Shown here: in pieces, positions 3,493 to 19,779 of the stretch | Layout of the letters: each line of letters opens with the position of its first letter | How positions within the stretch are numbered: the stretch's first letter is position 1 | Assembly: GCA_945873195.1 (NCBI GenBank) | Contig: CAMCDA010000015.1 | Coordinates: 1-40,043, forward strand | DNA from: Asaia bogorensis | Lineage (GTDB): Bacteria; Pseudomonadota; Alphaproteobacteria; Acetobacterales; Acetobacteraceae | Direction: 5' to 3' | Length of the DNA: 40,043 nucleotides | Made by a program: the position numbers and the translations under genes | Notes under the pieces: model-generated | Seen by the model: only the letters and a program-made list of their open reading frames with translations | The model's database searches: none | What the model was told of the DNA's origin: nothing

Positions 3493-3573
3493 GGCGCCGA
3501 CATATCACGAATATCCCCGGCGCGAAGGGCCAACACCCCTTCCATCCGCCGGGCCAACCCCCTATATCTCTCT

Positions 3574-3850
3574 CCGTCAGCTTGCTGACTATGGTGATAA
3601 ACGGTGGTTGGAATAAGCGTTGTGGACCCGGGGGCAGTGCCCGGCGCCTCCACCATTATCCTCCTGGAAACAGGGCGGATTCATGGGGGCGAAACAGGCT
3701 CGACACGCGTGGTAAAGACCCATCTTTTGCCCGGCATGATACCGCCGTTATCGGGTCAAATCTCAAGTGCCAATGATAATCAGGCGCTCGCTGTAGCTGC
3801 ATAAGCTATAAGCGCGGTTCGGGGGGCACCGGGCAACAGAAGCCCCCCAC
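3574..3850 (+). ncRNA. ssrA: tmRNA, circularly permuted two-piece form (alphaproteobacterial ssrA)
   Basis: Ribosome-rescue RNA in permuted order. The acceptor piece comes first: hairpin GTCAG-CTTG-CTGAC (3576-3589), T-stem CCGGG/CCCGG, and the 3' end CGCCTCCACCA finishing at 3655. A 29-nt spacer (3656-3684) follows, and then the coding piece starts with GGGGGCGAAACAGG at 3685. GGGGGCG pairs with CGCCTCC of the acceptor piece (six Watson-Crick pairs and one G-U), rebuilding the tRNA-like acceptor stem after the spacer is cut out. The T-loop is GGCAGTG rather than TTCGAAT, as I recall for this lineage. The coding piece ends with a GGGGGGC/GCCCCCC hairpin (3821-3848). A TATATC -10-like box lies at 3563-3568. 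The outer ends are approximate. Confidence 0.95.
3769..3804 (+). other. tmRNA proteolysis-tag reading frame (ANDNQALAVAA)
   Basis: Within the coding piece, the resume codon GCC at 3769 opens the frame ANDNQALAVAA, followed by TAA at 3802-3804. With the alanine carried by tmRNA itself, the tag is 12 residues long, two fewer than the Caulobacter tag AANDNFAEEFAVAA. The N-terminal AANDN, bound by SspB-alpha, and the C-terminal AVAA/LAA-like degron, bound by ClpX, are both kept; the middle is shortened. Confidence 0.93.
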
Positions 3851-3877
3851 TCTACCCTCTCCCGGAAAGCGACGCCC

Positions 3878-4267
3878 TTGCGTGTATTCATCGCCGCGCT
3901 CGCCTACTTCCTCCTCGTCTTCGCCGCCGGATTCCTGCTCGGCCCCATCCGGGCGCTGGTGCTCGAACCATGGATTGGCCCCGCGGGCGCCGTCCTCGCG
4001 GAGGCCCCCTTCCTCATACTCGCCATGCTCGCCGCCGCTCGGCTGATCACCGGCTGGCGCGCGATCCCGCCCGGACAGCCGCGGCTGGCGATGGGGGCCT
4101 GGGCGTTCGGGCTGCTGGCGGTGACCGAAATCGCCGGTGCCGCCCTGCTGAGGGACATGCCGCCCGCCGTCTATTTCACCCAGTTCACGACCGTGGCCGG
4201 CCTGGTGTCCCTGGCGCTGTTTGTCCTGTTCGCGCTGTTTCCCTGGCTGCTCGCCCGCCGGCCGTGA
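3878..4267 (+). CDS. Small integral membrane protein, four predicted TM helices (unknown function)
   Basis: A 129-residue hydrophobic protein with four likely membrane spans: residues about 3-22, 38-56, 70-88 and 103-124, joined by short loops and ending in RR before the stop. No catalytic motif is visible and I cannot assign it to a named family with certainty. The reading frame opens with TTG at 3878 (TTG CGT GTA), about 28 bp after the tmRNA terminal hairpin, so it may be read from its own promoter or through ssrA. It lies 52 bp before the PfpI-family gene on the same strand and could share its transcript. Confidence 0.6.
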   Translation: MRVFIAALAYFLLVFAAGFLLGPIRALVLEPWIGPAGAVLAEAPFLILAMLAAARLITGWRAIPPGQPRLAMGAWAFGLLAVTEIAGAALLRDMPPAVYFTQFTTVAGLVSLALFVLFALFPWLLARRP

Positions 4268-17266: not shown

Positions 17267-17567
17267 GACGGGGTCTCCTGGTGGATTTGGGTTCCTATTA
17301 TGGGGAGTGGGGCAGGGCGGGGCAACGCGTTGGAGTGGGAGGATGCCGGGCGTTCAGATTTCTCCCCCTCCCCTTGAGGGCTTGGGCCGCGAAGCGGACC
17401 AAGGTTGGGGGGAGGGGTGATCGCGGCACCGTCCCGGGGGGTTTCTACCCCCCACCCCAACCCTCCCCCTCAAGAGGGGAGGGGGAATCAGAGGGTGAAC
17501 GGACAAAACTTCCGGCACGCGACGGTTCCTCTTGTTCCCGGAAATGAATTCCGCTACCTCTTTCCCC
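17267..17567. repeat. Divergent intergenic region (yqeY/carA) with a C/G-rich inverted repeat
   Basis: This 301-bp gap must hold both promoters. Its main visible structure is an inverted repeat: TCCCCCTCCCCTTGAGGG around 17363-17380, matched by CCCTCAAGAGGGGAGGGGGA at about 17467-17486, with an inner partner pair GGTTGGGGGGAGGGG (17403-17417) and CCCCAACCCTCCCC (17453-17466). Such polypyrimidine/polypurine palindromes recur in alphaproteobacterial intergenic DNA as dispersed elements, which I state from memory. I see no convincing promoter. Confidence 0.5.
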
Positions 17568-18923
17568 ATGCTCACCATCGAAGCCATCATCGACCGTCTC
17601 GGTGGCCCCGACGCCGCCGCCAGGCTCACCGGCGTAACAACCGAGGCCGTGCGCAAATGGCGCCAGGCCGGCGCCATTCCGTCCCGCCATTGGTCCGCCG
17701 TCATCGCCGCCACCGGCCTGACGCTCGCCGACATGCAGGGGGGCGTGGAACCGGCCGCCGAACCCTCGGACATCCCCGCCGGCGCCACCGCGGCCCTGGT
17801 CCTGTCCGATGGCACGGTCTTCTGGGGCCGCGGCTTCGGCGCCCATACCGGGGCCGAGAACCCGGTGGGGGAGGTCTGCTTCAACACCGCCATGACCGGC
17901 TATCAGGAAACCCTGACCGACCCGTCCTATGCCGGCCAGATCATCACCTTCACCTTCCCCCATATCGGCAATGTCGGCACCAACCCGGAAGACCTGGAGG
18001 CGACCGCCGTCTCCGCCCGGGGCCTGATCGTCAAGCAGGACGTGACCGAGCCGTCCAACTGGCGCTCCGTCCAGCACCTCGACGCCTGGCTGAAGGCGCG
18101 CTTCATCACCGGCATCTCCGGCATCGACACCCGCGCGGTGACGATCCGGGTCCGTGACGGCGGCGCGCCGACCGGGGTGCTGGCGTTTCCGGCCGATGGG
18201 CGCTTCGACCTCGACGCGCTGCGGGCGCGGGCCGCGGCCTGGCCGGGGCTGGAGGGGATGGACCTCGCCAAGGACGTCACCTGCCGCCAGACCTATGCCT
18301 GGAATGAGACGCAATGGGTGTGGCCCACCGGCACCGGCCGACAGGACGCGCCGCGTCGGCATGTCGTGGCGATGGATTTCGGGGCCAAGCAGAACATCCT
18401 GCGCTGCCTGGCCTCGGCCGGGTTCCGCGTGACGGTGGTGCCGGCGACCGCGACGGCGGAAGACGTGCTGGGCCATAAGCCCGATGGCGTGTTCCTCTCG
18501 AACGGCCCGGGCGATCCGGCGGCGACGGGCGTCTATGCCGTGCCGACGATCCGCGCGGTGATGGAGGCCGGGGTCCCCATCTTCGGTATCTGCCTCGGCC
18601 ACCAGTTGCTGGCCCTGGCACTCGGCGGCAAGACCTACAAGCTTGATCGAGGGCATCGCGGCGCGAACCAGCCGGTCAAGGACCTGACGACGGGGAAGGT
18701 GGAAATCACCAGCCAGAACCACGGCTTTGCCGTCGACGCGGGATCGCTGCCGGGGAACGTGACGGCGACGCATGTGTCGCTGTTCGATGGCTCGAACGAA
18801 GGTCTGGCCTGTTCCGACCGGCCGGCGTTCTCGGTGCAATACCATCCGGAGGCCTCCCCGGGCCCGACCGACAGTCATTACCTGTTCGGCCGCTTCGCGG
18901 ACCTGATCGAGGCGGGGCGGTAG
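17568..18923 (+). CDS. carA: Carbamoyl-phosphate synthase small subunit CarA with N-terminal HTH domain
   Basis: The glutaminase subunit, which supplies ammonia to CarB for pyrimidine and arginine synthesis. Residues about 75-451 are normal CarA. The CPSase small-chain domain starts AALVLSDGTVFWGRGFG, and the class I amidotransferase domain has nucleophile Cys342 in IFGICLGHQLLAL and the His/Glu pair in QYHPEASPGP. Residues 1-58 are extra: IEAIIDRLGGPDAAARLTGV, then a turn and recognition helix TTEAVRKWRQAGAIPSRHW, then AVIAATGLTLADM, a Cro/YdaS-like HTH. The frame is continuous between the two. ATG 17568 is chosen; a TTG at 17532, an ATG at 17544 and an internal ATG at 17733 (which would remove the HTH) are alternatives, and none has a good ribosome site. 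Confidence 0.93.
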   Translation: MLTIEAIIDRLGGPDAAARLTGVTTEAVRKWRQAGAIPSRHWSAVIAATGLTLADMQGGVEPAAEPSDIPAGATAALVLSDGTVFWGRGFGAHTGAENPVGEVCFNTAMTGYQETLTDPSYAGQIITFTFPHIGNVGTNPEDLEATAVSARGLIVKQDVTEPSNWRSVQHLDAWLKARFITGISGIDTRAVTIRVRDGGAPTGVLAFPADGRFDLDALRARAAAWPGLEGMDLAKDVTCRQTYAWNETQWVWPTGTGRQDAPRRHVVAMDFGAKQNILRCLASAGFRVTVVPATATAEDVLGHKPDGVFLSNGPGDPAATGVYAVPTIRAVMEAGVPIFGICLGHQLLALALGGKTYKLDRGHRGANQPVKDLTTGKVEITSQNHGFAVDAGSLPGNVTATHVSLFDGSNEGLACSDRPAFSVQYHPEASPGPTDSHYLFGRFADLIEAGR

Positions 18924-18975
18924 GTGGTTGACGTTCGCGTCTCACTTCACTCAACGGCTGTTGAGGGCAACGCAG

Positions 18976-19779
18976 ATGTCTGACGCGAGTGGCAAGCCAG
19001 TCGGCTCCATCGAACGCATCAGGGCGATGATGCTTGAGATTCTGCCGGCGTATCCGGACGGCATCCAGGTGCGTGACCTGAAGACAAGGATCATGGCCCA
19101 GGCATCTGATCTGAAGCCGAGCACGATCCAGACGGCGATATCTGACTTCGCAACGGAATCGCCGCTAATCAAACGACTTGCGCGCGGTGTTGTCGCTCTC
19201 GCCGATCTGACTGAAGCGCCTCCGATGCCTTTTTCTGAAGCCAATCCTCCCGCGACATCGGAACAGCGGGCCGAGGTTGCGCGAGAGGCACGCTTTTACG
19301 AGCCGTTCGCCGCCTGGGTTGTCGACGAGGCCGATGAGGCAACCGAAGCCGTTGTTCTCGGCGGGGCTGGCTTGCGGGTAAAATGGGGCACGCCGGATGT
19401 CATCGGTGTCTACAAGCCGCGCCCGTCTGACCTGGTCAAGTTCCCGGTCGAAATCATCTCCGCGGAGATCAAGATCGATCCGAATGCCGCCATTGTCGCC
19501 TTTGGTCAGGCCATTTCGTATCGCCTGTTTTCCCATAAAACGATCATTGTGATGGCGGATGCGATTGAGAACAACCAGGACGCGAACGCCCGGTTGAAGT
19601 CGCTGTGCCATCTGTTCGGTGTCGGATACGTGCTGTTCGATCGGGACAAACCGGACAATCCAAATTTCCGTCTGATCGTTCCGCCGCGTCGGTTCGATCC
19701 TGACATGTATTATGTCAATGAGTTCGCGGCAGGCCTGGTCGGCATCAATCGGGCGCATTTCGACAAACTGTTCAGATAA
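18976..19779 (+). CDS. HTH plus PD-(D/E)XK nuclease-like protein lying between carA and carB
   Basis: A 267-residue protein I do not recognise by name. Residues about 10-75 look like a winged-helix/HARE-type domain ([50 protein letters not shown]). Residues about 105-200 resemble a PD-(D/E)XK restriction-type nuclease core: helix [11 protein letters not shown] with Glu109, [10 protein letters not shown] with Pro140-Asp141, SAEIKID with Glu164 and Lys166, then [19 protein letters not shown]. All presumed catalytic residues are kept. ATG 18976 has GAGGG upstream. It lies 52 bp after carA and 46 bp before carB on the same strand. Base composition is visibly less GC-rich than its neighbours, suggesting transfer into the operon. 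Its role is unknown. Confidence 0.75.

Follow-up and report, generated by a model that had tools for sequence, protein, structure and literature searches.

The carA gene of Asaia bogorensis encodes a CarA protein to whose N-terminus a Cro-type helix-turn-helix (HTH) domain is fused in frame, and we consider it probable (roughly 0.8) that this HTH-CarA protein is an autogenous repressor of its own operon. The fusion itself is confirmed. Sequence-level support for repression comes from the HTH and its Cro fold, from tandem palindromes, from their positions at the carA promoter, from the joint absence of domain and palindromes in HTH-less genomes, and from conservation, and with this the part of the original prediction that concerned control of the enzyme's own operon has gained strong computational support. 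The coordinates of all features in the window (the whole 40,043-nucleotide stretch analyzed here) are collected in Table 1.

Table 1. Features at the carA locus, in positions of the window
Feature	Positions	Strand	Basis or remark
carA (HTH-CarA fusion, 451 aa)	17568..18923	+	Single open frame, ATG 17568 to stop 18923
Cro-type HTH, carph-isopro NF046037, residues 4-56	17577..17735	+	Profile match, AlphaFold2, fold matches
Third helix, residues 25-34, with EA(V/I)RKWR	17640..17669	+	Relatives' alignment, AlphaFold2
Linker, residues 57-72	17736..17783	+	Low pLDDT at 57-66
CarA proper	17784..18920	+	TIGR01368; C342, H426, E428 invariant
Proximal operator (candidate), CGGAA-ATGAA-TTCCG	17539..17553	.	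Centre -22 from ATG; best matrix match in the 40-kb window
Distal operator (candidate), CGGAC-AAAAC-TTCCG	17500..17514	.	Centre -61; 39 bp from proximal; fourth in window
-35-like TTGTTC	17532..17537	+	T, T and G conserved at 100, 95 and 97% in an alignment of 74 distinct promoters
-10-like TACCTC (weak)	17555..17560	+	A at its second position in 97% of the same 74 promoters; 7 bases ahead of ATG 17568
G-rich dispersed repeat between yqeY and carA operators	17360..17488	.	54 matches across the genome, counting this one

The domain model carph-isopro, named in the original prediction, does exist (NF046037), and it matched residues 4–56 of the 451-residue frame with 75.7 bits (E = 2.3e-21; cut-off 38), confirming a complete Cro-like HTH in one frame with the enzyme. 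The interval first given for this domain (17568–17800) stands as far as about 17735; the remainder takes in the linker and the first CarA residues. Against Pfam models, the isolated HTH scored just below the gathering score for P22_Cro (29.3 versus 30.2 bits) and lower still, relative to the cut-off, for YdaS (21.8 versus 30). The small subunit of carbamoyl phosphate synthetase (CPSase) begins at approximately residue 75 (TIGR01368, 448.4 bits against a cut-off of 307.35), and C342, H426 and E428, the last of which we take to be the catalytic glutamate, do not vary among the 30 sequences aligned. A catalytic role for the Cys and His of CarA is described in PMC6245113. Above the cut-off, NF046037 has a single copy in the genome of the window.

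The HTH, modeled with AlphaFold2 as the original prediction had proposed, reached a mean pLDDT of 82.8, with helices at residues 4–11, 14–21, 25–34, 39–49 and 53–56. Its closest solved folds were the Cro proteins of phages N15 and P22 and of prophage Xfaso 1, with N15 Cro matched both as free protein and in complex with its operator; these hits had a probability of 1.00 at 24%–35% identity (best E-value 0.0076, none below 0.001). The EA(V/I)RKWR helix is near-invariant among relatives, and likeness to Cro makes it the putative recognition helix. The model of full-length CarA (mean pLDDT 75.8; 30 sequences) was low in confidence at residues 57–66 and also in the CarA core at 106–139, so the packing of the two domains is not readable from it.

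Translation most likely starts at ATG 17568. The upstream in-frame candidates ATG 17544 and TTG 17532 sit within the conserved promoter and operator, no Shine-Dalgarno stretch lies ahead of the internal ATG 17733 (score -0.7), and the HTH evolves as protein. Its median dN/dS was 0.24, with values below 1 in 59 of 59 disjoint pairs (CarA core 0.13), which indicates that the HTH stretch is under purifying selection. Upstream of carA lie a divergent yqeY and then dnaG; downstream, an ORF at 18928–19779 (266–283 aa, no Pfam match) is followed by carB, assigned by eye. Elsewhere in the window, positions 3536–3895 hold a two-piece (permuted) alphaproteobacterial tmRNA gene.

Conservation of the N-terminal HTH among relatives, which the original prediction had named as a check, was found across one family. 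Of 200 genomes sampled from the order, every one belonging to that family, 198 carry NF046037 above its cut-off, representing 50 of 51 genera, which puts the fusion well past coincidence. These counts, like all those over related genomes and loci here, do not represent independent trials. The HTH was in frame with CarA in 66 loci read, the window's own included, and HTH-CarA was likewise read in all 80 further loci, kept out of 345 confirmed ones, so that the frame was kept in all 146 loci over which it was checked. Most of these 80 loci come from Acetobacteraceae (Acidiphilium, Acetobacter, Komagataeibacter, Gluconacetobacter, Rhodopila, Belnapia and Commensalibacter). In the class, 74 of 289 genomes carried the domain at E 1e-4, 52 of them above the cut-off, as did 18 of 299 genomes in the phylum sample at 1e-6. 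At the loci read outside the family, the domain was attached to proteins other than CarA, and CarA itself showed no HTH, as judged by sequence signature, in any of the 28 loci parsed out of 30 (from 112 genomes with a match). Two small genomes of different genera within the family sample (G026 and G147; 1.7–1.9 Mb) lack the domain, and their CarA is without an HTH, starting in one at the fusion junction and in the other 28 residues before it; the HTH is dispensable, given its absence from these two.

A palindrome, GGAA-N5-TTCC, first came to light in relatives, in the sequence preceding their HTH start codons; over this region the 146 loci reduce to 132 distinct ones, window included. All eight core bases were present in 124 of the 132 and seven of eight in the other 8. 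A second site 30–60 bp away had eight of eight in 86 loci, seven in 38, six in 7 and four in one (L182), that is, at least seven of eight in 124 and at least six in 131 of 132. Spacing between the tandem sites was 38 bp in 36 loci, 39 in 42, 40 in 13 and 43–44 in 19, thus 38–40 bp in 91 of 131. Dinucleotide shuffling of the same regions (20 sets) yielded a mean of 11.9 loci reaching seven of eight once and none reaching it twice, while seven plus six of eight was reached by a mean of 1.3 loci (maximum 3). No palindrome was found upstream of the HTH-less carA in G026 or G147, and none of the 28 CarA loci parsed from other families had the exact palindrome. Their highest matrix score, 6.5, overlaps the low end of the scores within the family, which start at 6.2 and extend above 28 with a median of 28.1, under a matrix made from family sites.

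With an operator matrix built from 103 sites of other genomes, positions 17538–17554 ranked first across the 40 kb (score 7.0) and 17499–17515 fourth (3.1); approximately 0.5 and 1.8 matches per 40 kb are expected by chance at these scores, which are not significant by themselves and, together with the poor -10 box, are the weak points specific to the window. The layout of its sites is the same in two genomes of the same genus, and the tandem CGGAA/TTCCG-type pattern, which was drawn from the window, has a single occurrence in the 5.45 Mb of its genome, namely 17500–17553. The exact 17-mer, TGGGAA-N5-TTCCCA, has no occurrence in that genome; it was found in 142 of 200 genomes, whereas its reversed pattern was found in 13 of 200. 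Among the matches listed (75 sites in 50 of the 142 genomes), 62 lay within 250 bp of HTH-carA and 9 elsewhere, and 4 were not placeable, the position of the HTH being unlisted, which leaves 62 of 71 placeable sites at carA. Control of other pyrimidine or arginine genes, which the original prediction had included, is accordingly not supported: the listed sites are mostly at carA, and the window's tandem is unique in its genome. One family genome (G105) has 11 copies of TGGGAA-N5-TTCCCA against 0–3 in the others, a possible sign of site spread or of a larger regulon. Residues flanking the recognition helix were associated with the outer base of the operator in raw counts (p down to 1.9e-10). 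As proof of contact, this covariation was rejected: on the tree there were only 6 changes of operator type, with three concordant pairs, one discordant and two ties (not significant), and it is best taken as a hint from sequence.

The proximal site is centered 20–24 bp ahead of the ATG in 75 of 132 loci, filling the spacer between -35 and -10. When 74 distinct promoters were aligned on this site, TTG fell at -14 to -12, A at +10 and the ATG at +21 to +24, such that the 17-bp palindrome is, as read from these aligned promoters, the spacer between the predicted -35 and -10, and the ATG falls about where transcription should start. The window's carA mRNA may thus be leaderless, its -10-like box being so close to the ATG, and HTH starts on average show no Shine-Dalgarno stretch. 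A sizeable minority of loci, including those of Acetobacter, instead have the two sites about 50–160 bp before the ATG, and several such loci have a leader with a stretch resembling a Shine-Dalgarno sequence, noted by eye. The main text of an RNAseq study of Gluconobacter (PMC5756330) makes no mention of carA.

Many relatives carry signs of a second start in the linker. Among 120 distinct genes (148 entries, less 21 duplicates and 7 skipped by the linker regular expression, the window's own locus L001 included in the latter), 88 have an in-frame ATG in the linker, and an ATG or GTG with a Shine-Dalgarno stretch was present in 73, versus 18.4 ± 3.7 after codon shuffling (maximum 29 in 100 runs), under a threshold of -4.5 or better in duplex energy that was chosen after seeing the data and that 47 of the 120 fail. 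In the two other frames, such starts numbered 4 and 0 of 120, with bare frame +1 ATGs in 43 of 120. Mean Shine-Dalgarno energy was -5.5 kcal/mol at linker ATGs; ATGs within the CarA part averaged -2.35, and the start codon of the HTH averaged -1.9. In many relatives, judging from these signals, the linker start probably gives an HTH-less CarA beside the long HTH-CarA, the long form often being leaderless. Candidates for an internal start in the window were rejected, namely ATG 17733 (-0.7) and GTG 17745, which follows a G-run (-3.0 at normal spacing, -5.3 at closer spacing); the window may make only the long form. The internal start that the original prediction had set against a fused regulator may therefore exist in many relatives, but as an addition in the linker, with the HTH still conserved, and ATG 17733 itself lacks a Shine-Dalgarno stretch.

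Similar HTHs are fused to other enzymes. Heads above the NF046037 cut-off were found on PyrB, SerA, crotonyl-CoA reductase, NAD(P)H-hydrate epimerase and LeuA, and heads below it on HisZ (35.0) and ArgB (34.1); those on CoaBC and a TorD-like chaperone had no NF046037 match at 1e-6. The names HisZ and TorD-like chaperone rest on scores below curated cut-offs. HTH-HisZ-like fusions (L105–L107, L232–L234 and L251–L265; HisZ being the regulatory subunit of ATP phosphoribosyltransferase) have TTCAT-N5-ATGAA ahead of the gene in all 15 loci read (L251–L265), and 14 of them have a pair of copies at a spacing of exactly 39 bp. The sample was 18 genomes from a single order, of which 16 matched, one of these partially and left unread; six genomes are of one genus and near-identical there. 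Among the HTH-ArgB (acetylglutamate kinase) fusions (L240–L242, L249 and L267–L270), tandem palindromes 34 bp apart were present in all three loci tested (L240–L242), to which the pattern had been fitted. A further head sits on 2-isopropylmalate synthase (LeuA) outside Alphaproteobacteria (L272, in G591), and with the domain on LeuA as well as CarA, the name carph-isopro probably joins CARbamoyl-PHosphate synthase and ISOPROpylmalate synthase.

The remaining enzyme fusions (L239, L237, L108, L235, L059, L066, L236, L244–L246 and L248) place the HTH on PyrB, SerA, CoaBC, the epimerase, crotonyl-CoA reductase, the TorD-like chaperone and pyruvate dehydrogenase E1 alpha, the last assigned by eye. 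Some of these loci have palindromes at their own promoters; L237 has none by the inverted-repeat criterion used. Across many further families of Alphaproteobacteria, it forms the N-terminal head of a mitofilin/COG4223-like membrane protein (L040, L041, L043–L058, L060, L061, L064 and L065), an assignment made by eye with a Pfam check for L061 only. Upstream palindromes there (7 of 25 loci versus 5.9 expected from shuffling; L062 and L063 left out) gave no sign of an operator. Upstream inverted repeats at the non-mitofilin fusions numbered 14 of 23, versus 6.0 ± 2.1 in 200 shuffles (maximum 13), related loci being counted separately and L238, L247, L250 and, for unread bases, L249 being left out.

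Under autogenous repression, the Cro-like heads of HTH-CarA would bind as dimers to the pair of GGAA-N5-TTCC palindromes found at the carA promoter. In the commonest layout, which is also that of the window, one of the pair sits in the 17-bp spacer that separates -35 from -10, and its partner lies about 39 bp upstream. Bound HTH-CarA would then exclude RNA polymerase and hold the level of CPSase, and in the many relatives with a ribosome-binding site in the linker, CarA made without the HTH would uncouple the amount of enzyme from the amount of repressor. Feedback through protein concentration would suffice to explain such repression. In E. coli CPSase, according to PMC6245113, effectors bind CarB, UMP leads to alpha-beta units, and ornithine with MgATP favors tetramers. 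Such shifts in assembly make a coupling to repression conceivable, and we speculate that repression could be tuned by the oligomeric state of CPSase or by partnering with CarB.

That HTH-CarA instead binds its promoter as an activator, or as a dual regulator switched by metabolites, appears improbable. Enzyme-regulators such as PutA are switched by ligands, there are two sites with one upstream of -35, and the large minority of loci with both sites well ahead of the ATG would suit this role; nonetheless, a site filling the -35/-10 spacer, as the candidate site does in overlapping both boxes in the window and many relatives, is in the classic place for steric repression. Slightly less probable still is that a separate transcription factor binds the palindromes while the fused HTH serves protein contacts, localization or the like. 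Binding of HTH-CarA to the palindromes is a prediction, and the covariation of head and operator is not significant on the tree, both of which leave room for such a factor; however, HTH and palindromes are absent together from G026 and G147, a separate factor would be expected to have further targets whereas the listed sites are mostly at carA, and the genes for HTH-HisZ and HTH-ArgB are each preceded by palindromes of another sequence. Very improbable is an upstream ORF that is incidental, with the true start internal and the HTH stretch not translated in CarA. The internal starts with Shine-Dalgarno stretches in many relatives, and the lack of one on average at the HTH start, speak for it, yet the HTH residues are under purifying selection, the frame is kept at every locus read, the position of the promoter suits leaderless initiation from the ATG of the HTH, and the window has no convincing internal start.

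Beyond carA, it is about an even bet that these fusions constitute a widespread module, as yet undescribed, in Alphaproteobacteria and further afield, in which a Cro-like head on many pathway enzymes pairs with palindromes at the enzyme's own promoter, with the nested start of carA giving both a repressor-enzyme and a plain enzyme. Several of the host enzymes are feedback-inhibited, or are the regulatory subunit of such an enzyme (HisZ), so the allosteric site of the enzyme may double as a sensor for its own gene. For carA, the case is concrete: an enzyme of housekeeping biosynthesis appears to act as repressor of the operon that encodes it, via a phage-type DNA-binding head, in a fusion conserved over a bacterial family that includes industrial acetic-acid bacteria. 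An orphan domain family thereby gains candidate operators, the control of carbamoyl phosphate supply at the branch point of arginine and pyrimidine synthesis gains a possible answer, and a general architecture of self-repressing enzymes is suggested.

Within the open-access PMC literature, we found neither the carph-isopro name nor a function, operator or mechanism for it, and no description of HTH-CarA, its operators or the other fusions, which is weak evidence of absence. The domain model and trigger enzymes, including PepA at carAB, are already known; HTH-CarA with its operators is apparently undescribed. The window's HTH is a full member of carph-isopro, and the name of that model suggests that its curators had seen CarA fusions. 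N15, P22 and Xfaso 1 Cro share the fold and are distant relatives in sequence. Phage Cro repressors act on palindromic operators; whereas they are phage or prophage proteins, here the fold heads a 451-residue metabolic enzyme at a housekeeping promoter. We know of no self-regulation by the epoxidase HppE, an enzyme chain (PDB 1ZZB and others) with a segment that matches the HTH fold. Trigger enzymes include PutA, NadR and BirA. At E. coli carAB, PepA is likewise an enzyme that doubles as a transcription regulator, repressing promoter P1 according to PMC6245113. PepA, however, is not CPSase, whereas HTH-CarA would make CPSase its own regulator, by way of the Cro-type head fused to it and tandem operators dedicated to that head.
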